A stretch of DNA of 57,563 bases from a virus (IMGVR_UViG_3300028598_000002:1-57563); one strand, 5' to 3'. Positions 38,072-57,356 are shown, counted from the stretch's first letter. The notes: generated by a model from the sequence alone, not told the origin. A program made the numbers and translations.

Positions 38072-38177
38072 ACCCAACCACAAATCCAAGGCTGGAAAAC
38101 CAGCCTTTAACCCCGCCTTGCAGTGGTGTGCAAAACAGCGCACTGCTGCTCGGCTCAACCCTAAAGGGACCGACAAA

Positions 38178-39236
38178 ATGAAACTTTCAGACCTAGATGA
38201 CAACCAGATGACCAAGCAATTCAACGCAGGGCATGCGATGTGTTTGCGTGGTAGCCCCGGCATAGCCAAGACTGCGGTAGTTGAGCAGTATTGCGAACGC
38301 CATGACCTCGGATGTATCGTCATGAACTTGACAGCATCTGACCCGATGGATGCTTTGGGATTTTTAATCCCAGTCAAGACCGATGATGGTCCTGTTGCCC
38401 ATTACTCTAAGCCTAATTGGCTTACTCGTATCGAGGAGTCAGGCGAAGAGCAAGGAATTTTATTCCTTGATGAGCTGCTCAGTGCTGAGCACATCACCGT
38501 CAAGGCATTTGCACCACTGATGTCCGAAGGACGTATCGGTGAATGGTTACTGCCCGAAGGATGGGTAGTCTGGGCCTCTGGTAACAGAGTCCAAGACAAA
38601 TCCGGTGCCATGAAAATGCTGGTCCATGCTGGTAACAGAATGAACGTCATAGACGTTGAACCTGACCTCGAAGCATGGTGTACTTGGGCTAACGATGCCG
38701 GTGTACATCCGATGTACATAGCATATGCCAATGCTCGCCCCGGTGAAGTGTTTGCCGGTGAACCGCCGAAGGACCCCGATGAGCAAAGGCTTACGCCTCG
38801 TTCACTGGTGTTCGCTCAGGACTACCACACTGGTGGTCAAGTCGAAGACGACTTGGCACTTGATCTGGACCCCGTGACACAAGCTATGGTTGCTGGGTAT
38901 ATTGGTCAAGCTTCAACCGCGGATCTGTTCGGATTCTTCCGAACTGTTGACGAGTTGCCGACGATTCAAGAGATCATCGACAGCCCTGATACAGCGAAGC
39001 TGCCCGACTCGATGCGGATGGATGCTCAATATGCAGCTGTCCAGCTGTGTATTCACCATGCCGATAGTGAAACTATCGACCCCATCTTCCAGTATGTAAC
39101 GAGGCTGAACAAGGAACTGCAAGCCTCCGCTGCGAAGCAGCTTATCGACAAGACCAAGGGCTCATTGCTTAACAGCAAGGCACTCGGCCAGTGGATGAGT
39201 GAAAACCCAGCGTTGATTACATCAACCTTTGCATAA
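38178..39236 (+). CDS. MoxR-type AAA+ ATPase
   Basis: The start chosen is the ATG at 38178 with the GGGACCGACAAA leader; an upstream open frame lies in the leader. The product is 352 aa: Walker A variant G-S-P-G-I-A-K-T at 25-32 and Walker B G-I-L-F-L-D-E-L with D98/E99. The layout and size match MoxR ATPases, which use ATP to load metal or remodel partners that have a VWA domain. The next gene encodes a VWA protein, so the two probably act together. The leader also holds a repeated AGCGCACTGCTGCT element shared with the gene at 40610. Confidence 0.8.
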   Translation: MKLSDLDDNQMTKQFNAGHAMCLRGSPGIAKTAVVEQYCERHDLGCIVMNLTASDPMDALGFLIPVKTDDGPVAHYSKPNWLTRIEESGEEQGILFLDELLSAEHITVKAFAPLMSEGRIGEWLLPEGWVVWASGNRVQDKSGAMKMLVHAGNRMNVIDVEPDLEAWCTWANDAGVHPMYIAYANARPGEVFAGEPPKDPDEQRLTPRSLVFAQDYHTGGQVEDDLALDLDPVTQAMVAGYIGQASTADLFGFFRTVDELPTIQEIIDSPDTAKLPDSMRMDAQYAAVQLCIHHADSETIDPIFQYVTRLNKELQASAAKQLIDKTKGSLLNSKALGQWMSENPALITSTFA

Positions 39237-39242
39237 ACCCCA

Positions 39243-39258
39243 GCGCCAAGGATGGCGC
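39243..39258 (+). promoter_or_regulatory. GCGCCA-AGGA-TGGCGC hairpin, copy 1
   Basis: This 6-bp stem with the AGGA loop lies between the MoxR stop and the leader of the VWA gene. The identical hairpin occurs at 40577-40592, so it is a repeated element and not chance. The loop carries an SD-like AGGA. Confidence 0.65.
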
Positions 39259-39276
39259 ACATTACAGGAGACCGAC

Positions 39277-40548
39277 ATGAAGTACTCACCTGAATTGACT
39301 GAATGTTTGAGCAACCTAGTTGCTCAGCAACCTTTCTTCGCCACCTATTTGTATAACAATATGGAACTCGGCGAAAACCCCAGCATTTCGACAGCCCGTA
39401 CCAATGGTACTCGTATCGAAGTCAACCCTGAATGGTTTGGTAGCAAACCAATACAGCAACGAGTGTTCATCATGGCTCACGAGATCATGCATGGCATACT
39501 CGATCATATGGGACGCGATGCCCTGTACATCAAGCGAGGCTTTGGCCCTGACTTGCTGCCATTCAACCCTGAGACCAGCAACGAAGCTCAGGACTACGTC
39601 ATCAATGCCATGCTGAAGGAAGCACGTATTGGTGAGATGCCGCCCTCTGGGCTATGGGACCCGAGCATCAAAGGCGATGCATTATCCGATGAGGTATACG
39701 TACAACTCAACGGACAGAAGCAGGACCCCGATGCCAAGGACAAATCACCCGATGCCGATGGCAACGATAAAGGTGATGGTCAAGGACAGGCGCAAGGCCA
39801 AGGTCAACCTGACCAAGGTCAGAAGTCTGGTGATGACAACTCACCACCAAGTCACGGTAGTGATAAGGAAGGTGAGGGTTTTGATGAGCACGTAGCAGCT
39901 GGCGAAGCCAAGCCTGAGCAAGAGCAAAAGACCGCTATGGCTCAAGCGATGCAAGCTGCCGAAGCTATGGGCTCAATGCCTGAGTCACTCAAGCGAGTGA
40001 TCGGTGGATTGATCGACCCCGAAGTATCATGGGAAGAGCAATTCCGTAACTCTGTTACGGCTCGACAAGGGCAAGATACCCAGACATGGAGACGCCCGAA
40101 TCGTCGCCGCATTGCAGTAGCACCACACATCTACACCCCGGGCAAGACAGGACACCAGATCGGTGGACTGGTACTTGCTGTGGACGTGTCAGGATCACTG
40201 AACGAAGTCATGCTGACCAAGTTACTTAGCGAAGCTAAGGGGCTGCTGCAAGAAGTCAAGGCCGAATGGGTCAAGGTTATCTGCTGGAATACTGAGCATC
40301 AAGGTACCTTTGACATCGATGATCCAGAGGAACTGGATACCCTCGAAATAGATGGGGGTGGTGGTACTAGGCTCGAATCAATGGCACGGTACCTCGACGA
40401 CGAGGACATACTGCCTGAGCAGATAGTCTGGTTCACTGATGGAATCACTAGGTATAGTGATACCAACCCATTCAGCTGTGATGTTACGTGGTTACTCACA
40501 ACTGACCGCAGGGTACCGTCTTACGGTACCATCATCCACATGAAATAG
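39277..40548 (+). CDS. Metallopeptidase-VWA protein (DUF2201-like)
   Basis: The start chosen is the ATG at 39277 directly after GGAGACCGAC. The product is 423 aa. The N-terminal domain has the zinc-peptidase motif H-E-I-M-H at 68-72 within HEIMHGILDHMGR; an acidic, Gln/Asp/Gly-rich linker spans about 140-220; the C-terminal domain is VWA-like with a MIDAS D-V-S-G-S at 303-307 and T-D-G near 388. DUF2201-type proteins have this order. It is the predicted partner of the MoxR ATPase in front of it. Target unknown. Confidence 0.8.
   Translation: MKYSPELTECLSNLVAQQPFFATYLYNNMELGENPSISTARTNGTRIEVNPEWFGSKPIQQRVFIMAHEIMHGILDHMGRDALYIKRGFGPDLLPFNPETSNEAQDYVINAMLKEARIGEMPPSGLWDPSIKGDALSDEVYVQLNGQKQDPDAKDKSPDADGNDKGDGQGQAQGQGQPDQGQKSGDDNSPPSHGSDKEGEGFDEHVAAGEAKPEQEQKTAMAQAMQAAEAMGSMPESLKRVIGGLIDPEVSWEEQFRNSVTARQGQDTQTWRRPNRRRIAVAPHIYTPGKTGHQIGGLVLAVDVSGSLNEVMLTKLLSEAKGLLQEVKAEWVKVICWNTEHQGTFDIDDPEELDTLEIDGGGGTRLESMARYLDDEDILPEQIVWFTDGITRYSDTNPFSCDVTWLLTTDRRVPSYGTIIHMK
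40512..40530 (+). terminator. 3' hairpin at the end of the VWA gene
   Basis: GGTACCGT-CTT-ACGGTACC is a perfect 8-bp stem located in the last codons of the gene. No U-tract follows; it may protect the mRNA end. Confidence 0.45.
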
Positions 40549-40576
40549 CGCACTGCTGCTTCATTCCAACAACCCC

Positions 40577-40592
40577 GCGCCAAGGATGGCGC
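40577..40592 (+). promoter_or_regulatory. GCGCCA-AGGA-TGGCGC hairpin, copy 2
   Basis: This is the same hairpin as at 39243, here upstream of the gene at 40610. The AGCGCACTGCTGCT element before it (40547-40560) also occurs at 38137-38150 before the MoxR gene. Confidence 0.65.
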
Positions 40593-40609
40593 ATCAACTG
40601 GAGACCGAC

Positions 40610-40957
40610 ATGATTACCACAACCCGAAAAGAAACCGCCAAGTTACTACGCATTGCGTTAGAACAGGCTATACGTCTGAGCGATAACGAGAATGTGTATG
40701 GCGACCGAGACGACCAAGGGCACGAACAATCTGCCAGCGTCGAATACTTCAAAGAGTACATCGAGCAACTTGAGCGTAAACAATCCGCGCCTTACGTTGA
40801 AGAAGGCTATTACACCATCGAGAGTAAGGAGGATTCCGTAGACTGTGACCATGGTCCATGTAATGGGATCAATCTCGATAACGGCTGGATTGTCTGGACG
40901 TATCCAGAGAAACCCGACCTGATTTCTTTCCACCCCAATTTCACAAGGGAGAAATAG
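40610..40957 (+). CDS. Unknown protein (115 aa)
   Basis: The start is the ATG at 40610 directly after GGAGACCGAC. The product is 115 aa, with a helical N-terminus and a mixed C-terminus (VDCDHGPCNGINLDNGWIVW). The leader resembles those of the MoxR and VWA genes, which suggests joint regulation. Not recognised. Confidence 0.6.
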   Translation: MITTTRKETAKLLRIALEQAIRLSDNENVYGDRDDQGHEQSASVEYFKEYIEQLERKQSAPYVEEGYYTIESKEDSVDCDHGPCNGINLDNGWIVWTYPEKPDLISFHPNFTREK

Positions 40958-40959
40958 CC

Positions 40960-41139
40960 ATGACTTTGCAAGAATTTTCCGAGCAAGTTGCCGCGGCAGC
41001 TGAGCTACACCCTGAGGCTGAGGTGGTGATAACAACTCTGGATGATGAGTATAACGTCCATTCGACCGAGTTTCAGACATGGAAAAATGGCTTCATAAAC
41101 TCAATCATCTTTTCGATCCAATCTGACGAGGAATTCTGA
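40960..41139 (+). CDS. Unknown small acidic protein (59 aa)
   Basis: A frame from ATG 40960 (AAGGGAGAAATAGCC before it) to TGA 41139 encodes 59 residues (MTLQEFSEQVAAAAELHPEA at the start). The stop overlaps the next ATG (TGATG-type coupling). Not recognised. Confidence 0.6.
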   Translation: MTLQEFSEQVAAAAELHPEAEVVITTLDDEYNVHSTEFQTWKNGFINSIIFSIQSDEEF

Positions 41140-41504
41140 TGGATAACTACGACACCCTGAAAGATTCTCATGAGCTGGCGCAGGAACAGCAACAGGATCT
41201 GGATGAAGCGAATGACGCACAACTCAAGATCGAGCACTGGTGCTATGACCATTTGCCTGAGGCATTTAAAGACTGCCTGAAAAGACCCGCGGGAGAAAGC
41301 CTACTGGCACACGCTCGTGAGGACAAACGCGATAGCTGGCTATCCCTGTTAAAGCTGACTGGTTTATACAGAGCGGAGACGGAATTTGCTGGGGAAACCC
41401 ACGTAATTGCCGCCAGTGGCTGGTGTGATTGCGAACGTGTCTGGGAGTACATCAATCACGCAGATGCTAAGCACGCCATGCTGGAAGAAATGCTCGATGC
41501 CTAA
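41139..41504 (+). CDS. Unknown protein (121 aa)
   Basis: The product is 121 aa, acidic and helical, with Trp/Cys pairs (HWCYDHL, GWCDCERVW). The ATG overlaps the previous stop, and the stop lies inside the next gene's start. Not recognised. Confidence 0.6.
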   Translation: MDNYDTLKDSHELAQEQQQDLDEANDAQLKIEHWCYDHLPEAFKDCLKRPAGESLLAHAREDKRDSWLSLLKLTGLYRAETEFAGETHVIAASGWCDCERVWEYINHADAKHAMLEEMLDA

Positions 41505-41967
41505 TACACCAATTATCCCTACCCTCTGGGCACAGAAATTGCTGAACGAATTCTATGACAACATACTGTTGTCGAGTATCACGAAGGGTATCAGTGCTCA
41601 GGAGGTATGGGACTCCTTTAAATCTGACTTGGGGATGACCGACATGAAACTACATGAAGCCGAACACATACCCGATCACGTGAAGAAGATGATCGACAAG
41701 GTGACCGAGGCCGAAGGTCAGTGTGCTGGCCTGAATTTTATCTATGGCCGACATTGGGAGACGTTCAAAAGCATCATGCTGCTGAGCGGTGCTCACGTTA
41801 CCGAAGCCAAGGAAATCACCGTACCATCACCGCGCCAAAATGAGTGGGTATGCATTGGCATGAAGCAGGCCATCAACGTAGGCGACCTGAATATATTTTT
41901 CGGAATACTCAACGGCACCTACATTCACCCCAGCAAACACGGCAACCACCTGAAGGTGGGGCCTTGA
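41497..41967 (+). CDS. Unknown protein (156 aa)
   Basis: The start chosen is the ATG at 41497, which overlaps the previous stop by 8 nt. An internal GATGACCGACATG at 41634-41646 resembles the operon leader, so a shorter product from 41644 is possible. The C-terminal half has a G-T-Y-I-H-P-S-K-H-G-N-H end. A small hairpin CCACC/GGTGG (41946-41959) covers the end of the gene. Not recognised. Confidence 0.55.
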   Translation: MPNTPIIPTLWAQKLLNEFYDNILLSSITKGISAQEVWDSFKSDLGMTDMKLHEAEHIPDHVKKMIDKVTEAEGQCAGLNFIYGRHWETFKSIMLLSGAHVTEAKEITVPSPRQNEWVCIGMKQAINVGDLNIFFGILNGTYIHPSKHGNHLKVGP

Positions 41968-41999
41968 TGCTGAGCCCTTAACATTAACTGGAGACCGAC

Positions 42000-42272
42000 A
42001 TGAACCCAGCAATCCGCAAGATCGATTACGACCAAATGGTAGAAAGCTACCAACGAACCCAGCGCAACATCGCGTTCGAGATAGGCAAGGCCCAAGATGA
42101 AATGAAAGAGGCCATGATCTACGCTCGTGAAATGCAGCGCCGGTACCAAGACACGCTGGAGGAAGATGGTTACACCAGCGAATTGCAGTACTGGACCGAG
42201 CGCGTGCAGAACCTTAAGCTGGCGCAGCGCGTGCTGAATGAAGCACGCTTATTTTCTGACTACAACCGATAA
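42000..42272 (+). CDS. Unknown helical protein (90 aa)
   Basis: The product is 90 aa, highly charged and helical, probably coiled coil over most of its length (QRNIAFEIGKAQDEMKEAM). It begins directly after a perfect GGAGACCGACATG leader. Not recognised. Confidence 0.6.
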   Translation: MNPAIRKIDYDQMVESYQRTQRNIAFEIGKAQDEMKEAMIYAREMQRRYQDTLEEDGYTSELQYWTERVQNLKLAQRVLNEARLFSDYNR

Positions 42273-42286
42273 CGGAGACCGACGAC

Positions 42287-42712: not shown

Positions 42713-42741
42713 TTGACACATTTTGTTTACTAAACTACACT
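42713..42741 (+). promoter_or_regulatory. Sigma70-type promoter inside the plus-strand operon
   Basis: TTGACA (42713-42718), a 17-bp spacer and TACACT (42736-42741) form a near-consensus promoter, preceded by an A/T-rich UP-like stretch. It lies 25 nt before the start of the gene at 42766. It would give an independent start for the central block of small genes. Confidence 0.75.
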
Positions 42742-42765
42742 CCAAACACTCTATAGGAGACCGAC

Positions 42766-43002
42766 ATGAATCAAGACTTACTCGAACAGAAAATCCACGA
42801 ATGGGAGCCCGAAGGTGCCGAAGTTGTGCGTACCATCGACAGCTATGACAACGAAGTTGAACGCATCGTTAAATTCGAAGGCTGGTACTACCTGTACCGA
42901 TACTTCTTACTTCACGGCAACGAAGCCAGAGTCCACGTAAGCGTAGACCTGAACCGCGTATCACCTGACCACATCATTCAGGAATTGGGAGAGCGGCTAT
43001 GA
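42766..43002 (+). CDS. Unknown protein (78 aa), promoter-proximal
   Basis: The product is 78 aa, acidic, mixed alpha/beta, with F-E-G-W-Y-Y-L-Y-R-Y-F. It is the first gene behind the internal promoter and has a perfect GGAGACCGACATG leader. The stop overlaps the next start (ATGA). Not recognised. Confidence 0.6.
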   Translation: MNQDLLEQKIHEWEPEGAEVVRTIDSYDNEVERIVKFEGWYYLYRYFLLHGNEARVHVSVDLNRVSPDHIIQELGERL

Positions 43003-43217
43003 GCAACTACCCCCAAGTCACCCAACTCCGCGGCTGGTCTATCGCTATGACCAAGCACCCAACCACCAGAGAACTACATTGGGTAGCTTCTCGTCACGGT
43101 GTCAGTATGAACACCAATACCTACGATGGTCTGGTCACGATGATACTGTCAAGACCCGAGCAGTACCTGAACCATGCCCCCGAGAGGATCGGTACCAATA
43201 TCGATACCAAGGCATGA
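42999..43217 (+). CDS. Unknown protein (72 aa)
   Basis: The product is 72 aa, with Trp residues near the start (LRGWSIAMTKHP) and basic residues throughout. It is coupled at both ends by ATGA overlaps. Not recognised. Confidence 0.55.
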   Translation: MSNYPQVTQLRGWSIAMTKHPTTRELHWVASRHGVSMNTNTYDGLVTMILSRPEQYLNHAPERIGTNIDTKA

Positions 43218-43597
43218 GTAGCGCTTACGCGAATACCATTGATAGCGCGATGGATACCGTAAAGATGGACATACCCGGGCGAGAGTCAAAGAGCGCACTG
43301 CTGACCAACGCAGAGCTGCAAATCCGTTACCCGCTCGTACCCGACTGGGTAATCGAAGCCATCACTACACGCTACGGCACTGGGCACTTCCAGAACCGGT
43401 TCGGCTTACGCTTCCGAGATACTGAGCGCGTGAAAGCACTGCTGCTGATGCTCGACGCTGAAATCAGCGATTGCGGAGATCATGTAAATTACAAGATCGA
43501 AGGTGAGTATTGCACCATCCTGAACACATACGGGCACTGGCTTCACCTGCCCCGATTTAACCACATGCTCGAAGAGCGAGGACATACCAATGGATAA
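43214..43597 (+). CDS. Unknown protein (127 aa)
   Basis: The start chosen is the ATG at 43214 (ATGA coupling with the previous gene). The product is 127 aa, with a central Y-P-L-V-P-D-W-V-I-E-A-I-T-T-R-Y helix and a C-terminal W-L-H-L-P-R-F-N-H segment. The gene overlaps the HNH gene start by 8 nt. Not recognised. Confidence 0.55.
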   Translation: MSSAYANTIDSAMDTVKMDIPGRESKSALLTNAELQIRYPLVPDWVIEAITTRYGTGHFQNRFGLRFRDTERVKALLLMLDAEISDCGDHVNYKIEGEYCTILNTYGHWLHLPRFNHMLEERGHTNG

Positions 43598-43928
43598 ATT
43601 CATATCCGCCCCCGCGGACCCGGCGAAGCTGACCCGGCGCATCCTCGCCCGGCGAGCGTTCCGCCTGAAGAAGGGCTCGCCCGACACCCGGCGCAAGTTC
43701 CGTGCCCGGTGCATGTGGAGCTGGAGCAACTGGTCTGAATTGCGTGAGGACATCTTGGAAATCTATCAGGAATGTGCTGAGCGCAGCTGGACCGAAGGCA
43801 AGCTGTACCACGTGGATCACATCATCCCACTCAATGGTGCAAACGTCTCAGGACTGCACGTACCAGCGAACCTACGCATCATCCCTGCCGAAGATAATAT
43901 CGACAAGGGCAACGACTACGAAATTTAA
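43590..43928 (+). CDS. HNH-type endonuclease (homing-like)
   Basis: The product is 112 aa. The C-terminal half has an HNH layout: Y-H-V-D-H-I-I-P-L (D76/H77), G-L-H-V-P-A-N-L-R-I-I (N94), and E-D-N-I-D-K-G-N (N103/N108). The N-terminal half is basic. The first 130 bp are markedly GC-rich (mostly G/C third positions and repeated CCGGCG/GCCCGG), unlike the flanking genes, which suggests recent acquisition. It may be a homing or restriction-like nuclease. Confidence 0.75.
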   Translation: MDKFISAPADPAKLTRRILARRAFRLKKGSPDTRRKFRARCMWSWSNWSELREDILEIYQECAERSWTEGKLYHVDHIIPLNGANVSGLHVPANLRIIPAEDNIDKGNDYEI

Positions 43929-43939
43929 CGGAGACCGAC

Positions 43940-44317
43940 ATGACCGACTTTGACTTTGATAAGTTCGAAAAGAACATCCCCAAGTTTGTGCTGCAACTGA
44001 AGACGCAGATACAGACGCGGTGTTTTAACCCCATTGCACCTGACTTCGATGTTGAGGTCAGTGTCTTCGACAAGGGCCGCGGCTATGGGAAAGGTATCGC
44101 GATAGAAACAACCGACATTGCCGAGCATATGAATTTCAAGATGTTCGGGAAAGTGTGGCTGCACAATTTTGGAGGGAGCGTCCTGAAGGAGGTTCCTGAT
44201 TCATTCTGGCTACCGATTAATTGGCGCTGGGAGAGTAAAGGTGGTGGCAGTAATGGCACTGACGCTTTTACCTGCTACGTCAATGACGCTGGCAATATCA
44301 CTGCTATTCGAGACTAA
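43940..44317 (+). CDS. Unknown protein (125 aa)
   Basis: The product is 125 aa, with an acidic N-terminus, a beta-rich middle (VEVSVFDKGRGYGKG) and W-L-P-I-N-W-R-W-E near 95. It has a perfect GGAGACCGACATG leader. Not recognised. Confidence 0.6.
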   Translation: MTDFDFDKFEKNIPKFVLQLKTQIQTRCFNPIAPDFDVEVSVFDKGRGYGKGIAIETTDIAEHMNFKMFGKVWLHNFGGSVLKEVPDSFWLPINWRWESKGGGSNGTDAFTCYVNDAGNITAIRD

Positions 44318-44329
44318 TAGGAGACCGGC

Positions 44330-44563
44330 ATGCGACTACTTTATGAAGAAAATCCACACCCCACCCTGAAGCTCAAAGATGATCAGTTTGATGTGACCAT
44401 CAAATCATTGGGCGTATCAGGGATCGATGCCGCGAACATCATCGCGGATGCAGTAGCCAAGGGCACCATTAAATCTAGTGACTTGATGGCACCATCCATT
44501 GCAACCGGTGCTGACGCTATCAAACTGATAGATGGTATTAACACCATGAGGATACCGATATGA
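44330..44563 (+). CDS. Unknown protein (77 aa)
   Basis: The product is 77 aa; the leader is GGAGACCGGCATG. It has an Ala/Ile-rich helical middle (AANIIADAVAKGTIK). The stop overlaps the next ATG. Not recognised. Confidence 0.55.
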   Translation: MRLLYEENPHPTLKLKDDQFDVTIKSLGVSGIDAANIIADAVAKGTIKSSDLMAPSIATGADAIKLIDGINTMRIPI

Positions 44564-44781
44564 GTACTGAATATTCAATCTGGGATGGCACGCTGTGCTA
44601 CAGCAAAGGCTACCCCACCATTAAAGAAGCTTGCGACGATGCCGAGCGGTATATCCGTTCAACACAAGTCTGCGAATTGTTTGACGACATAACCATCCGC
44701 GAAGGTATGGGTATGGATGCCGATGGTAAACCCGAAGGTAAGATCGTGAGGACATTTCGCTTTTCAATTGACTGGAGGTAA
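44560..44781 (+). CDS. Unknown protein (73 aa)
   Basis: The product is 73 aa, acidic, with C-Y-S-K-G-Y-P-T near the start. It is coupled to the previous gene by an ATGA overlap and followed at two bases by a membrane peptide. Not recognised. Confidence 0.55.
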   Translation: MSTEYSIWDGTLCYSKGYPTIKEACDDAERYIRSTQVCELFDDITIREGMGMDADGKPEGKIVRTFRFSIDWR

Positions 44782-44783
44782 TC

Positions 44784-44909
44784 ATGAAGCAGCTAGGGAT
44801 TGCAGCAATTTTCTGGGCCGTAGTGATATTCGTTATCGTGATGAAAGATACCGATCAATGCTACCCCTACAACGAAGTTTTCTGGGAAGACCCCGAGAAC
44901 ATAGGTTAA
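44784..44909 (+). CDS. 41-aa membrane peptide
   Basis: A frame from ATG 44784 (GGAGG box before it) to TAA 44909 encodes 41 residues: a hydrophobic helix near the N-terminus (GIAAIFWAVVIFVIVM) and an acidic, aromatic tail. The strong SD and tight spacing support a real gene. It may act in the inner membrane of the infected cell; function unknown. Confidence 0.55.
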   Translation: MKQLGIAAIFWAVVIFVIVMKDTDQCYPYNEVFWEDPENIG

Positions 44910-44925
44910 CTAAGAGGAACCGACA

Positions 44926-45153
44926 ATGAATGTAAGTTTAAGATATTCCCCGATGGGCAACTGCTACGAAAGACCTATCGACTCCGCTGACGCAACTGCT
45001 CACTCATATACCTTTGGTATTGGTGGTGAGAAGATTCGCGTAACCTACAGAAATCCGAAGCAAGGAGCTTCACTGTCAATAGATGGGAAACCCGCTGAAC
45101 TGGAGCGGTTAGCACATGAAATCCTTGCATCCTTAGCCCTTGCAAAAATATAG
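44926..45153 (+). CDS. Unknown protein (75 aa)
   Basis: The product is 75 aa, beta-rich in the first half (ATAHSYTFGIGGEKIRVTY) with a helical end. The leader is AGGAACCGACAATG. Not recognised. Confidence 0.55.
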   Translation: MNVSLRYSPMGNCYERPIDSADATAHSYTFGIGGEKIRVTYRNPKQGASLSIDGKPAELERLAHEILASLALAKI

Positions 45154-45164
45154 GAGATCGACAA

Positions 45165-45404
45165 ATGAAAAAGAATACCCAAAGCGTAAACTCAGGCAAG
45201 TGCCTTGTCCCCGCGTGCAACAAGCAAGCGCAATGTCTACGGATGTGCAACGCCTGTTATGCCCGTACCTACTACTGGCACAATAAATCCCTGAAAGAAA
45301 AGATGCAGCGAATTGAGCAGATCACTGTGTGGGAATCATCGCTTGAAGTGCAATGCGGTAACCCGAGAGCCTTTGATCGAGAGAAGCTCAAGAAGGAGGG
45401 ATAA
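45165..45404 (+). CDS. Small zinc-finger-like protein (79 aa)
   Basis: The product is 79 aa with a Cys-rich segment C-L-V-P-A-C-N-K-Q-A-Q-C-L-R-M-C-N-A-C-Y near 13-32, a probable zinc-binding knuckle, then a basic region. It may bind nucleic acid or host transcription proteins. The leader is GGAGATCGACAAATG. The stop overlaps the next ATG. Confidence 0.6.
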   Translation: MKKNTQSVNSGKCLVPACNKQAQCLRMCNACYARTYYWHNKSLKEKMQRIEQITVWESSLEVQCGNPRAFDREKLKKEG

Positions 45405-45592
45405 TGACTAAACTGGAATCATTCGTACCACGGAAGGTACCGGCTAAACGAAAGTTTATCGCGGTATCGGAAGAGGACTACGAATTCATCGCGGGTTTGT
45501 CTGACGAGTTCGATACCACCAGAGGTAAGATCATCACGACATTAATCCGCTTCTATCAAGACGCTAACACGGAGAAGAAACGTGGAAAATGA
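45404..45592 (+). CDS. Ribbon-helix-helix-like protein (62 aa)
   Basis: The product is 62 aa. After a basic N-terminus, F-I-A-V-S-E-E-D-Y-E-F-I-A-G-L and T-R-G-K-I-I-T-T-L-I-R-F-Y fit the strand-helix-helix pattern of small Arc/CopG-type regulators. It could repress a phage or host promoter. The ATG overlaps the previous stop. Confidence 0.55.
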   Translation: MTKLESFVPRKVPAKRKFIAVSEEDYEFIAGLSDEFDTTRGKIITTLIRFYQDANTEKKRGK

Positions 45593-45851
45593 GAGCAGTC
45601 ATCAAGATGATGAAATCGTGTTACAAGCTCAGGAGTACCTGAAAGGTAGAGGGCTACGTCAAACTGACGAGAGCGAAATCATCCGCGGACTACTGAACCG
45701 CATCATGGATAAAAAGGTAGAAATCCGCGGGCTCGAATCACAGGTGCATAGCTTGCAGCAAGATCGGATTGGTCTAGAAATGCAAGTTGCAGGGCTTGAG
45801 AAGAAAATCAAAAAGCTCGATGCCAAGTGCCGCCGAGTTGCAGGAGGATAG
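45582..45851 (+). CDS. Coiled-coil protein (89 aa)
   Basis: The product is 89 aa with a long heptad-repeat helix (about 45-80; LESQVHSLQQDRIGLEMQVAGLE). The GTG start overlaps the previous stop. It may oligomerise; function unknown. Confidence 0.55.
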   Translation: MENESSHQDDEIVLQAQEYLKGRGLRQTDESEIIRGLLNRIMDKKVEIRGLESQVHSLQQDRIGLEMQVAGLEKKIKKLDAKCRRVAGG

Positions 45852-45853
45852 TT

Positions 45854-46084
45854 ATGAGTAAGGACTCAGCACTAGACCACCAAGAGGGTGGTAACCACTA
45901 CAAGCACATGAAGATCCAGCCGGTCGAGTTCATTGAAGAAAATGAGCTTGGCTTTCTGGTTGGCTGCGTGATTAAGCGGATGTGCCGGTATAAGGATAAG
46001 GCTGGTGCTGAGGACCTACGCAAAGCGAAGCATGAAATTGACTTAATACTTGAGCGGGAATACCCGCAGGAGACCGACAAATGA
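45854..46084 (+). CDS. DUF3310 protein (T7 gp1.7-like family)
   Basis: The start chosen is the ATG at 45854 (GGAGG box before it). The product is 76 aa and matches the DUF3310 core: N-H-Y-K-H-M-K-I-Q-P-V-E-F-I near 15-28, then L-V-G-C-V-I-K-R-M-C-R-Y-K-D-K-A-G-A-E-D-L-R-K-A. T7 gp1.7, a nucleotide kinase, carries this domain. A role in nucleotide metabolism is possible. The stop overlaps the next start. Confidence 0.7.
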   Translation: MSKDSALDHQEGGNHYKHMKIQPVEFIEENELGFLVGCVIKRMCRYKDKAGAEDLRKAKHEIDLILEREYPQETDK

Positions 46085-46269
46085 GCAAGAGAAATACTGT
46101 ACGGATAGGCGAGGTAAGCACCTTGCGAATGGTTGCAGGGAATGAAGCCAAGCACCCGGTAGTGATTCACAATGACAACCTGAGAGAATGGGTTGGTTTC
46201 GGATGGATCACGCTTCGAGCCGCCACGGATAAAGATAGGGGAAAATACCCTACGGTGGTGGAGTCATGA
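46081..46269 (+). CDS. Unknown small protein (62 aa)
   Basis: The product is 62 aa, with many charged residues and a W-V-G-F-G-W-I motif near 38. The leader is GGAGACCGACAAATG. ATGA overlaps couple it to both neighbours. Not recognised. Confidence 0.55.
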   Translation: MSKRNTVRIGEVSTLRMVAGNEAKHPVVIHNDNLREWVGFGWITLRAATDKDRGKYPTVVES

Positions 46270-46625
46270 AACGCACAGGAGAATGTTTTACCGAGGTAGG
46301 CAAAGCGATACTGGAAGGAGACCCGAGAGCAGGGCTCGTTGCTGTTCACGGCTTACCAACAGGACAGGGAGGGCATGCCAAGAAGGTAGGCGCATACCCC
46401 CATGCATGGCTCGAATCACCAGCACTGGCCGTGGCTTACGACACCGTAGCAGAGGTAGCAGTACCGATAGGACTGTACTATCAAGCCGGTGAGATCACGT
46501 ATACCGTTCGCTACACACTCGACGAGTACAGAAAGATGGTATTGAAACACGGAACTTACGGCCCGTGGGACGAGAAGCTTCTGGCCCGTGATAACGAAAT
46601 CGACAAGATGATAAAGAAGTCATGA
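46266..46625 (+). CDS. Conserved phage protein with an HAWLE-type core
   Basis: The product is 119 aa. The pattern V-A-V-H-G-L-P-T-G-Q-G-G-H-A, P-H-A-W-L-E and A-Y-D-T recalls a family of small phage proteins with HG...G-x-G and HAW-(V/L)-E motifs; no activity is known to me. His and Glu in the HAWLE segment could be catalytic, which is inference. Coupled at both ends. Confidence 0.55.
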   Translation: MKRTGECFTEVGKAILEGDPRAGLVAVHGLPTGQGGHAKKVGAYPHAWLESPALAVAYDTVAEVAVPIGLYYQAGEITYTVRYTLDEYRKMVLKHGTYGPWDEKLLARDNEIDKMIKKS

Positions 46626-46903
46626 ATCACGACGAAGCTGAGAAACAAGCCCGAGAAGTACTGAAGACCATGGAAGAATACTATAAGGGCAAGTACTTAG
46701 CAGCTGCTAAGGAACTAGAAGAAAAGCACAAGGTGGCACTGCAAGAACATCAGGATGCAATCACCGAAATCTACGACAGGGGTGCTGACGAATTAACGAA
46801 AGATTACCAAGAATATGTTGGGAAGATTGGCGTTATCTCTGGGCTGGTCGGTGTCTTAATCGGCCTCGCCCTTGCTACCATCATCCAAATCATATTCAAA
46901 TAA
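46622..46903 (+). CDS. Coiled-coil membrane protein (93 aa)
   Basis: The product is 93 aa: an acidic/basic helix with heptad features (about 1-65) followed by one C-terminal membrane segment (about 68-92, GVISGLVGVLIGLALATIIQIIF). It may anchor a phage activity to the inner membrane. The ATG overlaps the previous TGA. Confidence 0.6.
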   Translation: MNHDEAEKQAREVLKTMEEYYKGKYLAAAKELEEKHKVALQEHQDAITEIYDRGADELTKDYQEYVGKIGVISGLVGVLIGLALATIIQIIFK

Positions 46904-46917
46904 CAGGAGACCGACAC

Positions 46918-47628
46918 ATGACACCGTTTTACGAAACCAAACTGGACCTACCTAAGGTCAAGGACTTCATAGCAGATGCTATGAAACAATACGGCCTGAC
47001 CCGGGCCCAAGCCAAGGAACAATACAACCAGCTGAAGGCTGACAAGATATTTGTCAACGACACCTATCAGGTCAACATCAGCACCCAACCACCATGGAAC
47101 GAAATGGGCACGCCGATGCTGCACATCAGCATCAAGCGACTAGACAAGGGACACGCCAAAGATTGGCGAGACTTCCAGCAAATCAAGAACGAGCTGGTAG
47201 GCCCCGAGTACGAAGCGTTCGAACTCTACCCATTGGAGTCGCGATTGGTGGACGCCGCTAACCAATTCCACCTCTGGTGCTTTGCCACTGAGGGGATCAG
47301 CTTACCGATTGGATTCCCGGCACGTGCTGTTGAGGGCGTACCACCAGAGGGCTCGAACGTAGTCCAACGCCCCATCGAGGAAGAGCCCGAGGAAGTCACG
47401 GTAGATAAAATACTGGAGGAGGGACCTCAGGAAATCACCATCGATCAAATCATGGAAGTAGCCGCGGCAATGGACGGTGCCGAAGTTCCTCAGGAAGGCC
47501 GAATCATCGAGCTTCAAGACCCCGAAACTGGTGAGTACGTTTCATCAGAAACTGACCCTGATCGGGTGCGGGAGATCATCCAGAAGTACGTGGACTCTGA
47601 ACAGGTAGGAGCAGGTAATGACGACTAA
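46918..47628 (+). CDS. DUF7694-like protein with an acidic C-terminus
   Basis: The product is 236 aa. The middle holds the DUF7694-like core D-W-R-D-F-Q-Q-I-K-N-E-L-V-G-P-E-Y-E-A-F-E-L-Y-P-L-E-S-R (about 81-108). A roughly 90-residue acidic tail follows with a duplicated (V/I)-T-(V/I)-D-(K/Q)-I-(L/M)-E unit. The function of this family is not known to me. Leader GGAGACCGACACATG. Confidence 0.65.
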   Translation: MTPFYETKLDLPKVKDFIADAMKQYGLTRAQAKEQYNQLKADKIFVNDTYQVNISTQPPWNEMGTPMLHISIKRLDKGHAKDWRDFQQIKNELVGPEYEAFELYPLESRLVDAANQFHLWCFATEGISLPIGFPARAVEGVPPEGSNVVQRPIEEEPEEVTVDKILEEGPQEITIDQIMEVAAAMDGAEVPQEGRIIELQDPETGEYVSSETDPDRVREIIQKYVDSEQVGAGNDD

Positions 47629-48433: not shown

Positions 48434-48453
48434 CCACTGTTCGAGACCGACAA

Positions 48454-48471
48454 GTGACGAACTTGTTGTGA
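48454..48471 (+). CDS. Five-codon minigene candidate upstream of the polymerase
   Basis: A CGAGACCGACAA leader, close to the operon motif, is followed by GTG ACG AAC TTG TTG TGA. The first codons overlap a hairpin ACAAGT/ACTTGT (48450-48466). This may be a leader peptide or the remnant of a lost gene whose leader was kept. No protein evidence exists, so confidence is low. Confidence 0.25.
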   Translation: MTNLL

Positions 48472-48498
48472 GTATAGATACCTAAAAGGAAAAAGCAA

Positions 48499-50334
48499 AT
48501 GAAAATAATTACGATTGACTTCGAATCGTTCTACTCACGTGAGTTCTCACTCACCAAAATGACCACCCAAGAATACATCTTAAGTCCTCACTTCGAAGTC
48601 ATAGGTGTATCTGTGAAAGTCGGTGATGACCAGACGCAATGGAAAACCAGCACCCGCGAAAATATAAGGCTGTGGCTGAATCAGTTCCCTTGGGATGATG
48701 CTATTGTCTGCGCCCATAACGCCATGTTCGATGGTGCCATCCTCGAATGGATATTCGACATCCACCCCAAACTCTACCACTGCACCATGATGTCAAGCCG
48801 CCCCATCTGCGTACCGTTCACTACCCGCGGCAAGTCCTCGCTGGCCGAGGTATCCAAATTCTACAACCTGCCGCCGAAGGGTACGGAGATCCAAAATGCA
48901 CTGGGCATGCGGCGACGAGACTTTAACGAACCTGCCATGCAGCGATACGCTGACTACTGCATGCACGACACCGAGCTGTGTTATTACATTGCGAAGAAGC
49001 ACCTGCCCCAATTACCACAGGCAGAAATTTTACTCATCAGCGCCACAATCACGAAGTTCACCAGACCCAAGCTTGAACTTGATATTGATGTCTTGACAAC
49101 AAGGCTCGCTGAGGTGCTGGAAGAAAAGGCCAACGTGCTGGAACGCTGCGGGTTACACAATCGCGACATGCTGATGTCGAATGAACAATTCGCCGCAGCC
49201 CTGATCATGTTCGGGGTTACGCCCCCAACCAAGATATCACCTCGCACCGGCAAGGAGACATACGCCTTTGCCAAGGTGGATAAAGATTTCATAGCCCTGC
49301 TGGAGCATGAGGATGTACGAGTCCAACTGATCGTAGCCGCCCGACTCAAGGTGAAGAGCACCATCGAAGAGACCCGCCTCCAGCGATTCATCGATGTCTA
49401 CCATGCGATGCAAGCCACTGGTAGTAAGTTCGCAGCACCACTGCTCTACGCCGCGGCCCACACGCATCGATTCGGGGGATGGGACAAGCTCAACCTCCAG
49501 AACCTTGGTCGCGCATCTGCATTACGCCGAGGCATCAAGGCACCAGAGGGGCACCAGATTATTGCGGGTGACCTGAGCCAGATCGAAGCGCGGATCACCG
49601 CGGTGCTGGCAGGACAGGATGATCTGGTCGAAGCGTTCCGTAAAGGCGTGGATGTATATTCAGCATTTGCATCCCGGCTATACGATTTCGAAGTTACCAA
49701 GGCGAATACCACTGAGCGATTCGTTGGCAAGACCTGCATACTGGGCTTAGGTTTCGGGGTAGGTGGAGTAACCTTACAAAATAGCTTGAGTATTGCTGAT
49801 GTAGATGTTACACTAAATGAGAGTTATAGATATGTAAATACATATCGGACCATCTACCCCTGCATCCCAGCGTTGTGGAGTTTGATGGACAAGAAGGTGA
49901 TACAGGCTATGGCTGAGGGTGTTAGATTGGAGATTGGATTCAACATACATACCGAGAAAGAAGCCATCGTGTTGCCCAACGGAATGAAGCTCAGGTACCC
50001 GAACCTATACCAGAAGCAAGTTGATGGGTACAACAATTGGGTGTATGATTACCGGGGTAACGAGACCACAATTTATGGAGCGAAACTCGTTGAGAACGTA
50101 GTACAGGCGCTGGCTCGAATCATTGTATCAGCCGCCGAGGTACGACTTATCAAAGCTGGGTGGTATGCCGTGTTGCAAGTTCACGATGAACTGCTATATG
50201 TAATACCCAATGCTAAGGTTGAGATCTTCTCACGAGTACTCCAGAAGATACTGGAACAACCAGTGCCATGGATGCCCGAGCTGCCGGTTGCAGCAGAAGT
50301 AGCACATGGCGATACATACGCCGATGCTAAGTAG
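48499..50334 (+). CDS. Family A DNA polymerase with 3'-5' exonuclease
   Basis: The product is 611 aa. Exonuclease motifs: T-I-D-F-E-S (D7/E9), C-A-H-N-A-M-F-D (N74/D78) and Y-C-M-H-D (Y153/D157). Polymerase motifs: A, G-D-L-S-Q-I-E-A-R (D358); B region R-F-V-G-K-T-C-I-L-G-L-G-F-G; C, L-Q-V-H-D-E (D563). This is a compact T7-like family A enzyme that replicates phage DNA. A strong AAGGA SD precedes the ATG. It is followed closely by the recombination nucleases and helicase. Confidence 0.95.
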   Translation: MKIITIDFESFYSREFSLTKMTTQEYILSPHFEVIGVSVKVGDDQTQWKTSTRENIRLWLNQFPWDDAIVCAHNAMFDGAILEWIFDIHPKLYHCTMMSSRPICVPFTTRGKSSLAEVSKFYNLPPKGTEIQNALGMRRRDFNEPAMQRYADYCMHDTELCYYIAKKHLPQLPQAEILLISATITKFTRPKLELDIDVLTTRLAEVLEEKANVLERCGLHNRDMLMSNEQFAAALIMFGVTPPTKISPRTGKETYAFAKVDKDFIALLEHEDVRVQLIVAARLKVKSTIEETRLQRFIDVYHAMQATGSKFAAPLLYAAAHTHRFGGWDKLNLQNLGRASALRRGIKAPEGHQIIAGDLSQIEARITAVLAGQDDLVEAFRKGVDVYSAFASRLYDFEVTKANTTERFVGKTCILGLGFGVGGVTLQNSLSIADVDVTLNESYRYVNTYRTIYPCIPALWSLMDKKVIQAMAEGVRLEIGFNIHTEKEAIVLPNGMKLRYPNLYQKQVDGYNNWVYDYRGNETTIYGAKLVENVVQALARIIVSAAEVRLIKAGWYAVLQVHDELLYVIPNAKVEIFSRVLQKILEQPVPWMPELPVAAEVAHGDTYADAK

Positions 50335-50344
50335 GAGATCGACG

Positions 50345-52828: not shown

Positions 52829-52838
52829 TGAGCTACAC

Positions 52839-53198: not shown

Positions 53199-53578
53199 GC
53201 CAAGCCATGGCGAAAGCCGTTGAAAAATATATCCTGCTGCGCGACGAAAAGAAGCGCATCCAAGACAAGCATAAGGAGGAACTAGCACCCCTCAACGATG
53301 CAATGTCCAAGATTGAAAACGCAGTGCAAAAAATCCTGATCAATCAGGGTGCTACCAACAGTAAGACACCAGCTGGCACTGCCTACCTGAGCACAACCAA
53401 ACGACCAAAGGTAGTTGACTGGTCCGAGTTGAAGCCGTTCTTAATTGAGAACGACTTGTTAGACATGATGACCCGGTCGCTCAGTGCCACCGCGGTCGAT
53501 GAGTTCTACGAATCAACAGGTGATTTGCCCCCGGGCGTCACCATCACATCTGAAACCAATTGCCGCTTCAAGCGGTAG
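53195..53578 (+). CDS. Conserved phage protein of the replication block (127 aa)
   Basis: The product is 127 aa with a helical first half (MAKAVEKYILLRDEKKRI), then G-A-T-N-S-K-T-P-A-G-T-A-Y-L-S-T-T and L-P-P-G-V-T near the end. This N-terminal helix followed by G-T-A-Y and PPGV motifs is common in phage recombination or replication neighbours. It overlaps the previous gene by 4 nt and is followed by the ssDNA-binding-like gene. Function unknown. Confidence 0.6.
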   Translation: MSQAMAKAVEKYILLRDEKKRIQDKHKEELAPLNDAMSKIENAVQKILINQGATNSKTPAGTAYLSTTKRPKVVDWSELKPFLIENDLLDMMTRSLSATAVDEFYESTGDLPPGVTITSETNCRFKR

Positions 53579-53588
53579 GAGCAATGCC

Positions 53589-54575
53589 ATGGGCGATTTA
53601 GCCAACGTAAAAAATACGCTTCCAGCAGAAATGCAGGACGTTTTCGACGCCGACAGTCTAGCCGGTGATCTATATGATGGAGTCCAAGGAGGATTCGCAG
53701 TCATATCTATCCGAGGTTCTCGCTTCCGCATCGCCAAGGCGGGGGAAGAAACTGTCATGCTGAACGAGAAGGATGAACCCATCGGTTCCCTTGAGTGTGT
53801 GCTGGTCAAAGCATCACGCAACGTCAGCAAGCTGTACTATGCCAAGTCCTTCGAGGAAGGTGATGATGCAGCACCCGATTGCTGGTCAATCGATGGCATC
53901 ACGCCTGACCAAGGAGCCACTACACCGCAGTCGAAAAAGTGTGCTACCTGTCCACAAAATGTATGGGGTAGCAAGATCACCCCGGCAGGTAAAAAGACCA
54001 AGGCATGTGGTGACAATCGTCGCATCGCTGTCGTCCCTCTGGGTGACATCGCGAACCAACAATACGATGGTGCCATGATGCTCAGAGTACCGGCTGCATC
54101 GCTGGCTGATCTGGCCTTGTACGGTAAGGGTATGGCAGGTAAGGGCTTCCCTTATAATGCTATCGGCACGCGCATCGGATTCGATACCAGCGCCAGCTTT
54201 CCGAAGCTGACTTTCAAACCGATCCGTCCTCTGACTCAGGAAGAATTGGTGCAGGTTGCTGAGGTAGCAGTGTCCCCGACCGTTCACGCTATTCTTGACG
54301 CGCCACCGACTGAGACACCGGTCGAACAAGAACCCGCTGCCGAGCCAGAAGCCGCAGTTTCATTGGACTTCGAGCAGGGAGACGGTGATGACGTTAACGC
54401 AGTGACAGCAGAAATGGAAGGCAAGGCACCGCCCAAGAAGAAGGCTGCTACCAAGAAAAAAGCCGCGGCCAAGAAGCCTGAACCTGAGCCAGAACCGGCT
54501 GAAGAAGAGGCTGCTGCTGACCCGGTAGAAGAATCACTCGATGATCTGCTGGCGGATCTGGACAGCTTGGGCTAG
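53589..54575 (+). CDS. Probable single-stranded DNA-binding protein
   Basis: The start chosen is the ATG at 53589 with TAGGAG upstream. The product is 328 aa: a beta-rich core (about 30-230), a C-A-T-C-P motif near 119-122 followed by a Cys about 25 residues later that may bind zinc, a Pro/Glu/Lys-rich linker with K-K-K-A-A repeats (about 280-300), and an acidic tail ending L-D-D-L-L-A-D-L-D-S-L-G. Acidic C-termini are a hallmark of phage and bacterial SSB proteins that recruit partners. Position between the helicase and the primase supports this. Confidence 0.6.
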   Translation: MGDLANVKNTLPAEMQDVFDADSLAGDLYDGVQGGFAVISIRGSRFRIAKAGEETVMLNEKDEPIGSLECVLVKASRNVSKLYYAKSFEEGDDAAPDCWSIDGITPDQGATTPQSKKCATCPQNVWGSKITPAGKKTKACGDNRRIAVVPLGDIANQQYDGAMMLRVPAASLADLALYGKGMAGKGFPYNAIGTRIGFDTSASFPKLTFKPIRPLTQEELVQVAEVAVSPTVHAILDAPPTETPVEQEPAAEPEAAVSLDFEQGDGDDVNAVTAEMEGKAPPKKKAATKKKAAAKKPEPEPEPAEEEAAADPVEESLDDLLADLDSLG

Positions 54576-54588
54576 AGGGTATAAAGTT

Positions 54589-54609
54589 GGGGGTCCAAAC
54601 CGGGCCCCC
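54589..54609 (+). terminator. GC-rich hairpin before the primase-helicase gene
   Basis: GGGGGTCC-AAACC-GGGCCCCC forms an 8-bp stem with one G-U pair, 14 nt after the stop of the previous gene. No U-tract follows. It may be a 3' stabiliser or attenuate transcription of the next gene. Confidence 0.5.
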
Positions 54610-54635
54610 TAACACCCAATAAAAAGAGACTGACA

Positions 54636-57356
54636 ATGCAACTTCGCGAGTTCCTCAAAGCCATACTACCAAGCAAAGGGACATACTACACAGCGCAGCA
54701 AGAGCAGACCAAACCCCTCCGACAATTCAAACATGATTCAATCGAAGACGCAGCCCTGAAGTTGCTGGACATGACCAAGTCCCAGAGCAACTGTTACATA
54801 GCAACGGGATCATTCAAAAACAAAAGAACGCAAGCCGACTGCCGTGCCAAGAAGGCATGGTACATCGACATCGATTGCAAACCCGGGAAAGATTACGACA
54901 GCAAAGCCCTTGCCATGGCAGCGCTGAAGGAAGCACTGAAAGGTGGGCTACCACAACCATCAATCATCATCGATTCAGGCAACGGATTCCATATCTACTG
55001 GGTCATTGCCGAAGAGGTGGACGCTGTCCGCTGGCGGGGAGTCGCTGAAATGCTGGACCACGCAGTAGCAGCACTCGGATTGAACGTAGATCCGACCAGT
55101 ACGAAGGACTCGGCACGAATCTTGCGTGCGCCAGAGACACTCAACTGGAAAGACCCGAAGAGACCCATCCCCTGCGAAGTTAAAATAGACACCCACAAAA
55201 TTTATTCCTACCCCGCACTATTAAAATTATTTGAACCCTACAAAACTGTAGCTAAGCCATCGAATGTAATTCACATGCCAGTACCTCAAGGCATGCCCGA
55301 TGATTTATGGGCTGGCTTACCTGAGGGGAAAGCGAACAAGGCACAGGACATGATCGACCAGTGCCCACTGTTCGGAGAGGCCATAGCCACTGGCGGGAAG
55401 GAACACCTAGAACCATTGTGGCGTGGGTTGATACAGACCTTAGTCTATGTGGATGACGGTGAGGATTACATCCATGCCATCAGCGACCAGCATCCAGACT
55501 ACAACCCCCACCACGTAGCCGCTAAATACAAGGCAGCGTTTAATAAAAAGGATGAAGCAGGTCCATACCTCTGCCAGACTTTAGCAAAACACTCAACCAC
55601 CTGTCAGACCTGCCCTTACTGGGGCACCATCAAGACACCACTCGCGCTATCGTATGGCACGAAAGGTTTACTCCCATACCCATACCGCGACGGAGCCCAC
55701 GGCGTAGAGCTGTATGATCCGGACGAGGATGAATGGGCTCAGGTTATTAACTACCACGTATCGGACTACCAGATAGCACAATCCGCTAACAGTCCGACCT
55801 ATGTTAAATTTGTAATGGACGGTGAGCAGATTGACTCCGACATGGTGGTTACGACTGACAATAAATCCCTGAGTGTACTGCTTGCACACCACGGACTCAG
55901 TCTCAACGACCCTAATCTACTACAGATGAGGCGACTCATGGTTGCTTGGACACAACAACTCAGGAATAACAGACAAGTGCATGCAGCCACCAGAGAATTT
56001 GGCTGGTGCGGTAAAGGCTTTCACTATGGCGGCATCATGTACGCCGCGGATGGTACCGAGACCCCCTCCTTCAAGACCGATGTGAATTTGTACAACATCT
56101 TTTCACCGCATGGTGACATAGGACCATGGCAGAAATGTGCCAACCATATCCTGTCCCAACCACGCCATGCTGTCTGGTGCATGCTGGCCGCATCATTTGG
56201 ATCGCCGCTGATGAAGTTCACAGGGGCCACAGGAGCCGTTCTCTCTGTGGTATCTCAAGATACCGGAACAGGCAAGTCAACGGCTATGCGTGTAGCACAG
56301 GGCGTCTGGGGCCATCCCATGAGGGGGATGTTCATGATCGATGACACCACGAACCTCGTTGGCAACCGGATGGGGGTACTGAATAACCTCCCGGGATTCT
56401 GGGACGAGGTACGGGAACGTGAACAAGTTCACCAGTTTATTAAGAACATTTTCCGAATGGGTCAGGGGCAGGAGAAGAAACGACTGACCTCCAACATCAC
56501 CGAGCGGGAGTCAGGCGGCTGGTCAACCATGCTAATCGTCGCATCCAATGAAGCCCTGCGGGATCACATCGAGCAGCAGGTAGGCAACTCCGATGCTGGA
56601 GCCGTGCGTGTCTTCGAACTATACGCCGATGCAATACAAGACACGACGATGAACAACGACCAAGCCCAGCATATGTACCTGAAGGTCGAAGAGAATTTCG
56701 GTCACGCCGGGGCCAAGTATGCCAAGTGGCTGGCAATGAATAAGGACAAGGCCAAGCAGACAGTGCAAGGGATCGCCAGCAAGCTCAATACTGACCTCAA
56801 GGGTACGAGCGACGAGCGTTACTGGATCGCATCCATGTCGTGCATGCTAGCCGGTGCAGCCATTGCCACGAGCTTGGGTATCTGCGCGTTCGATATGAAA
56901 GAGTTCAAGGAATACCTGATCAAGGAGTTCCTGAAAATGCGTAGTGAAAAGTACGAGGAATGGGAGACACCACAAGCCAGAAGCATCAAGCTACTGGTAC
57001 GGTTCTTGCATGAGCACAAAGACCAGACAGTTAAATCCGACCTGATACCCAGCAGGGGCAAGCGGCCCTATAAAATATTCAAGGATGCTTTCAAGCAGCC
57101 TGTCGTAGTTCGTGTTGCTACGGACTCAGCAATCGTCCGCATCATCAAAGAAGATTTCAAGGATTGGATGTACGAGCGCATGAAAGGTGCCGGGTATGGA
57201 CACGTTATCAAGGACCTAGAAAAGATGGGAGCCGTACCTATTAGGGGATCGGTAGATGCTGGCACGAGCTTAGCATCAAGTGGTCGTCAGATGTGCTTGG
57301 ACTTTCCCATGAACGCACCGTCCTTCAAGGCTGCGTTGAAAGACTGGCTGGACTAG
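54636..57356 (+). CDS. AEP primase-helicase (DUF927-like) fusion
   Basis: The product is 906 aa. The N-terminal archaeo-eukaryotic primase domain has W-Y-I-D-I-D (D78/D80), S-G-N-G-F-H-I-Y-W (H119) and S-A-R-I-L-R-A-P (about 159-166). A C-x-x-C pair lies near 328-331. The C-terminal half has a Walker A D-T-G-T-G-K-S-T near 545 and an acidic Walker B M-F-M-I-D-D near 566, in a DUF927/helicase-like setting. The enzyme probably makes primers and unwinds DNA at the fork. The leader is AGAGACTGACAATG. It converges with the minus-strand gene at the right edge. Confidence 0.85.
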   Translation: MQLREFLKAILPSKGTYYTAQQEQTKPLRQFKHDSIEDAALKLLDMTKSQSNCYIATGSFKNKRTQADCRAKKAWYIDIDCKPGKDYDSKALAMAALKEALKGGLPQPSIIIDSGNGFHIYWVIAEEVDAVRWRGVAEMLDHAVAALGLNVDPTSTKDSARILRAPETLNWKDPKRPIPCEVKIDTHKIYSYPALLKLFEPYKTVAKPSNVIHMPVPQGMPDDLWAGLPEGKANKAQDMIDQCPLFGEAIATGGKEHLEPLWRGLIQTLVYVDDGEDYIHAISDQHPDYNPHHVAAKYKAAFNKKDEAGPYLCQTLAKHSTTCQTCPYWGTIKTPLALSYGTKGLLPYPYRDGAHGVELYDPDEDEWAQVINYHVSDYQIAQSANSPTYVKFVMDGEQIDSDMVVTTDNKSLSVLLAHHGLSLNDPNLLQMRRLMVAWTQQLRNNRQVHAATREFGWCGKGFHYGGIMYAADGTETPSFKTDVNLYNIFSPHGDIGPWQKCANHILSQPRHAVWCMLAASFGSPLMKFTGATGAVLSVVSQDTGTGKSTAMRVAQGVWGHPMRGMFMIDDTTNLVGNRMGVLNNLPGFWDEVREREQVHQFIKNIFRMGQGQEKKRLTSNITERESGGWSTMLIVASNEALRDHIEQQVGNSDAGAVRVFELYADAIQDTTMNNDQAQHMYLKVEENFGHAGAKYAKWLAMNKDKAKQTVQGIASKLNTDLKGTSDERYWIASMSCMLAGAAIATSLGICAFDMKEFKEYLIKEFLKMRSEKYEEWETPQARSIKLLVRFLHEHKDQTVKSDLIPSRGKRPYKIFKDAFKQPVVVRVATDSAIVRIIKEDFKDWMYERMKGAGYGHVIKDLEKMGAVPIRGSVDAGTSLASSGRQMCLDFPMNAPSFKAALKDWLD

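Follow-up and report, generated by a model that had tools for sequence, protein, structure and literature searches.

A probable start-associated sequence at the non-structural genes of an IMG/VR virus

The window analysed here is the whole of an IMG/VR virus record of 57,563 bases (IMGVR_UViG_3300028598_000002), read on one strand. Genes for terminase, portal, major head protein and tail proteins make up its leftward block, and a rightward block of non-structural genes begins at about 36.4 kb. A 10-nucleotide (nt) block, GGAGACCGAC, in which GGAG is followed by ACCGAC, recurs as a leader at gene starts; it is one sequence unit tied to starts and is nearly confined to the rightward block. A nucleotide search of GenBank phages (n=50,697) with the window gave no match. 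By protein, the nearest cultured relatives are the Rhizobium phages RHph_TM27A and RHph_TM3_14A (portal 45%, polymerase 41%), in which the ATPase, metallopeptidase, polymerase, SNF2 helicase and large DUF927 homologue follow the same gene order as in the window. Among uncultured phages, L007/G001 (polymerase 66%) and L009/G003 (portal 78%) are more closely related to it.

Eight exact copies of the block occur in the window, every one 0–3 nt 5′ of a start codon, and the minus strand of the window holds no exact copy. Extended by ATG, the block becomes the 13-mer GGAGACCGACATG, which is exact five times, on the plus strand only (39267, 40600, 41990, 42756 and 43930), one fewer than the six exact copies of the original prediction. 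These leaders, at 39267–39276, 40600–40609, 41990–41999, 42756–42765 and 43930–43939, abut ATG 39277 (a DUF2201 metallopeptidase/VWA-like gene), ATG 40610, ATG 42000, ATG 42766 and ATG 43940. Further exact blocks outside the 13-mers stand at 42274–42283 (3 nt before ATG 42287), 46069–46078 (2 nt before ATG 46081) and 46906–46915 (2 nt before ATG 46918, DUF7694). The idea that all copies sit directly on start codons thus held insofar as all eight exact blocks adjoin starts, but a spacer of 0–3 nt intervenes.

Less exact copies on the same strand begin with AGGGACCGAC at 38165–38174, 3 nt before ATG 38178 of a MoxR-like AAA ATPase (AAA_5). They continue with GGAGACCGGC (one mismatch, 44320–44329, ATG 44330), GGATACCGAT (two mismatches, 44550–44559, ATG 44560), the variant AGGAACCGAC (44915–44924, 1 nt before ATG 44926) and GGAGATCGAC (one mismatch, 45153–45162, 2 nt before ATG 45165). 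Many small genes without an assigned product lie between 39277 and the family A DNA polymerase gene (48499, plus strand), upstream of which is a decayed copy, CGAGACCGAC (48442–48451). The form GGAGATCGAC returns at 50334–50343, near a PD-(D/E)XK nuclease gene. This gene probably starts at TTG 50345 and not at ATG 50306 of the mechanical open reading frame (ORF) call, because the L007 homologue begins MAKKF; the leader would therefore lie one base 5′ of the start. Beyond the SNF2 helicase gene (51275, plus strand), a weak leader, AGAGACTGAC (54625–54634), is found 1 nt before ATG 54636 of a DUF927 protein. Another decayed copy, at 41634 inside ORF 41497–41967, may be a chance match.

The leader-like sequence near the polymerase gene recurs in L007, 45–60 nt 5′ of the polymerase start in both genomes (window 48442–48499, L007 4913–4985). 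In the window it is followed by a five-codon GTG frame, and in L007 by an ATG in frame with the polymerase that would add 20 residues.

On the minus strand, a weak leader, CGAGACTGAC (35455–35464), precedes ATG 35454 of the first gene of the leftward block. The original prediction took this copy as a link between the two operons. The copy is real, but the link is weak, since this sequence (CGAGACTGACATG at start 35454) has two mismatches and is the sole one among 39 leftward starts.

Counting tails with at most one mismatch to ACCGAC, we find the leader at 15 of 38 rightward gene starts, in agreement with the predicted figure of about 15 genes, and at 28 of 996 other NTG triplets of the rightward region (P ~5e-14). 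The full block with at most one mismatch is present at 11/38 starts against 2/996 other triplets, and with at most two mismatches at 15/38 against 8/996. In the leftward late block the latter threshold is reached at just 1 of 39 starts. Late and non-structural genes share the host's ribosomes, and the leader is therefore not simply the host's usual site. A plain scan at three mismatches yields only a modest excess (25 matches versus 15.0, standard deviation (sd) 4.4, in shuffles), so the evidence lies in the placement and the near-exact copies.

The anatomy of the block is consistent across its sites. The bases A, C, C, G, A and C after GGAG are kept in 15, 15, 13, 15, 14 and 14 of 16 aligned sites, approximate values that are biased upward because the sites were chosen by motif and one row (50346) is one base out of register. 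Bases 5′ of GGAG are A-rich and otherwise free. The spacer between block and start varies from 0 to 3 nt while the block itself is unbroken, so that GGAG and ACCGAC travel as one unit; such joint movement would not be expected from an ordinary preference at a fixed distance from the start codon. The similarity of leader genes stops at the block borders, with 7.59 versus 7.29 matches per 20 upstream and 5.11 versus 5.18 downstream for leader and other genes, respectively. Over 60 nt, predicted folding is weaker at leader genes than at other genes (−5.6 versus −9.7 kcal/mol, P 0.002), but local mRNA accessibility was rejected as an explanation, since the stretch from SD to start is itself no more open. 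A positive gap to the upstream gene is seen for 12 of 14 leader genes and 12 of 24 others (Fisher P 0.04, a few non-leader starts being misplaced), which gives modest support to the predicted preference for genes not coupled by overlap.

Several familiar elements did not account for the block. As the original prediction had held, pairing with 16S rRNA does not explain ACCGAC: 47% of shuffled tails pair as well or better with the Escherichia coli 16S 3′ end, which may not be the host's. Pairing of CCGAC with GUUGG of helix 45 was no better than that of shuffled tails. A shared promoter was also rejected, with 16 promoter-like sites in the region versus 20.1 in shuffles; the only good site at a leader gene is a sigma70-like TTGACA-17-TACACT (42713–42741) before gene 42766. 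A search for known RNA families returned a single sub-threshold match.

From these data we infer that the leader is probably a genome-specific start-associated sequence (SAS), that is, a signal that starts translation at about 15 non-structural genes, chiefly uncoupled ones. It would consist of a Shine–Dalgarno (SD) core, GGAG, fused to the fixed six-base tail ACCGAC. The core would bind the ribosome in the usual way, and the tail would be kept either as a good unstructured spacer that arises repeatedly in the genome or as a site recognised by a factor of the host or the phage. No copying with flanks was seen in the window, and selection on the block, or an old spread followed by decay of the flanks, is therefore favoured. 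The suggestion of a phage translation enhancer in the original prediction comes close to this reading, although the matching SAS class (PMC3203893) was not named there.

Such sequences were described in Cluster K mycobacteriophages, with the consensus GGGATAGGAGCCC (Pope et al. 2011, PMC3203893), and their function is still undetermined in the literature (PMC12699233, PMC11373665). Like the window leader, the Cluster K SAS is an asymmetric repeat (13 bp) that joins an SD core to conserved bases unable to pair with 16S rRNA. It occurs in 11–19 copies just 5′ of starts, mostly ATG, much as the window carries many copies before starts, and is restricted to the non-structural arm with a preference for genes that have an upstream gap. 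Both show gain and loss between relatives, an occasional opposite-strand copy and an extra upstream inverted repeat at some copies. However, the two sequences are unrelated except for GGAG when compared by eye with the published consensus, and the window leader does not match GGGATAGGAGCCC at two or fewer mismatches, the threshold used for Cluster K. Its conserved extra bases lie only 3′ of the SD core, unlike those of the Cluster K SAS, and its spacer is 0–3 nt rather than typically 3–7. The extended SAS (ESAS) of Cluster K are 17-bp imperfect inverted repeats that lie 5′ of a subset of the copies, whereas the window has only a hairpin with a 5-bp stem, at 39277 and 40610, which falls short of that definition. 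This hairpin resembles an RNA element, while ESAS are now read as promoters (PMC11373665).

A second known case is the 26-bp repeat CCAACAATCCTAAACTGGAGAATCTA of Citrobacter phage Mordin (PMC4611695). It too contains an SD core and is repeated before small genes of one arm, but it is longer and its conserved portion lies mostly 5′ of the SD core. A detector of start-associated k-mers picked up the repeats already described in Mordin and Adephagia, together with the leader of the relative L026 described below. Unrelated phages have similar leaders of different spelling, called start-associated sequences. The window leader shares the broad features of the class, namely many copies in one orientation at starts, conservation beyond 16S pairing, confinement to the non-structural arm and a bias to separated genes. 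As these general features are present and the Cluster K consensus is absent, we regard it as a further member of the SAS class, itself unexplained. The purpose of SAS has been a puzzle since 2011, and the present case shows the phenomenon outside mycobacteriophages, in several lineages.

We then compared the leader with orthologous places in relatives, mainly in two contigs, because protein scans with the ATPase and VWA genes gave few relatives. L007 has an exact block (GGAGACCGACACATG) before an 86-aa gene of which no counterpart was detected in the window. Upstream of its polymerase gene L007 reads AGAGACCGACATG, the corresponding sequence in the window being CGAGACCGACAAGTG, and its DUF927 gene is partly alike at the leader place (AAGAGACTG). 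The L007 orthologues of 42766, 46081, 46918 and the nuclease gene are without the leader. In G003, the ATPase gene is preceded by GGAGAATGCCGACT-ATG and the VWA gene by GGAACAACGAC-ATG, both decayed forms. The leader is present in the lineage, with turnover gene by gene. It is mostly lost or decayed at orthologues and is therefore not essential to any single gene. On the two refuting conditions set in the original prediction the result is mixed: variation after GGAG is constrained within the genome, yet the motif is missing from most orthologues in relatives.

Some points weigh against a translation-start signal. Eight leader places have a counterpart at an orthologous position in L007 or G003; the leader is kept at about one of these, decayed at three and absent from four. 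The predicted accessibility of the stretch from SD to start is the same for leader genes and other genes in the window. The tail might also be a non-functional passenger of copying.

The same comparison bears on whether the leader is a seam of short-homology recombination, at which small genes are exchanged or inserted as cassettes, each with its own start signal. Small-gene order differs between window 42766–46918 and L007 779–4499, and the relocated genes 42766 and 46081 have the leader in the window and not in L007, which would be compatible with the shuffling proposed in the original prediction. A more distant relative, L026 (polymerase 39% identical), has the VWA, polymerase, SNF2 and DUF927 genes in common with the window. 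Its small genes in the interval from VWA to polymerase bear a repeated leader of another sequence, AAGGAGAAGAACAC, in about 10 copies. This leader has the same layout of GGAG, tail and ATG in the same interval, but with another tail; its repeat extends back over roughly the last 31 nt of the gene before it, and paralogues occur among the small genes there. In the window, however, leader genes resemble one another in their flanks no more than other genes do and show no homology beyond the block, no paralogues were found among the genes, and apparently core genes (ATPase, VWA, nuclease) have leaders too. A length of 10–13 bases is moreover short for homologous recombination. We consider a recombination seam unlikely, and cassette shuffling a side effect at most.

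In L026 itself, the row of small genes, some paralogous, spans 4748–7879. Several of the products have EAKLKEKN(T/NG) at the C-terminus, since their final codons are supplied by the repeated leader block that belongs to the following gene. L044 has a leader similar to the AAGGAGAAGAACAC of L026. In RHph_TM3_14A, the nearest cultured relative by portal, the 26 kb that the analysis covered are without a repeated leader.

A wider scan of IMG/VR for the 15-mer AGGAGACCGACATGA found at least 118 contig stretches, and among the 120 copies listed, 111 stand at the head of a frame that has 40 codons or more or reaches the contig end. Several of the listed contigs, whose proteins show scant or no similarity to those of the window, have 3–8 GGAGACC-type leaders each, with looser tails. 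Such recurrence is what would be seen if the tail had no specific function, GGAGACC with an A/C-rich spacer being a good start that many phages reach independently as a compositional habit. Against this stand the single leader among 39 late starts of the same genome and the behaviour of the tail in the pattern-selected contigs, where further copies of the same tail number 38 against 5.8 (sd 4.8) for composition-matched permuted tails. This excess argues for genome-specific leaders and not for a general preference. Contigs chosen without the pattern show no such excess of the tail (2 versus 3.05). A tail of no specific function appears quite improbable to us.

Two leaders are preceded by the same hairpin, GCGCC-AAGGAT-GGCGC, at 39243–39258 (5′ of the leader of 39277) and at 40577–40592 (5′ of the leader of 40610), both on the plus strand. 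The GGA of the loop lies 16–17 nt from the GGA of the leader. The VWA orthologue in G003 (L018 about 50–66, minus strand) has GCCAC-AAGGAT-GTGGC, in which two of five stem pairs are changed on both sides, a result equalled by 56 of 500 shuffles and drawn from three sequences only. The form described for Csr/Rsm targets (a loop GGA, RUACARGGAUGU, with a second GGA over the SD site) is matched at the two genes and in G003, and the hairpin would fit a CsrA/RsmA target.

The leader could accordingly be an RNA target, either of a nuclease such as T4 RegB, which cuts GGAG, or of a Csr/Rsm-type repressor bridging the hairpin and the leader GGA. The loop AAGGAT and the stem kept by double changes in G003 speak for a repressor, and CsrA bridges a loop GGA and an SD site 10–63 nt apart (PMC7652899). 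Yet the hairpin precedes just two of about 15 leaders, and no CsrA gene was found in the window. The nuclease put forward in the original prediction finds no support, as the REGB_T4 hidden Markov model has no match in the window, although the model likewise failed to detect Mordin's gene with a RegB-like annotation. Finally, the tail ACCGAC is needed neither by RegB, whose requirement is GGAG only, nor by CsrA. We judge an RNA target of either kind very improbable.

If the leader is instead a start-associated sequence, a phage factor might read its tail. A DUF3310 gene (45854–46084, plus strand, E 7e-11) lies inside the leader region, and the authors of a study on Adephagia suggested that its DUF3310 protein (gp51) may act on SAS genes (PMC11373665). 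By analogy, DUF3310 is a possible trans factor, as a lead only. The domain is present in L044 and Adephagia, and was rejected as a general requirement because it is absent from Mordin (complete), Rollin and the partial contig L026; it may be common in phages anyway. With DUF3310 as candidate, a factor of this kind would give the non-structural regulon a translation channel of its own, with a separate code in each phage lineage spread over unrelated genes, to which we give only a slim chance. If a factor does read the tail, phages would have a gene-set-specific translation code; if none does, the leader would be a compact signal for strong starts and would help to locate the true starts of small phage genes. 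The value of this case lies in several exact copies together with a relative that uses a different leader in the same interval.

Two further repeats were observed. The late genes 23160 and 3841 (minus-strand starts) both carry another identical leader, AAAGAGGCAGCGTA-ATG. A conserved intergenic 14-mer, AGCGCACTGCTGCT, occurs at 38137–38150 and 40547–40560 in the window and three times in G003 (L018, minus strand, around 2358, 1181 and 77), its sites lying just past stop codons or 5′ of early genes.

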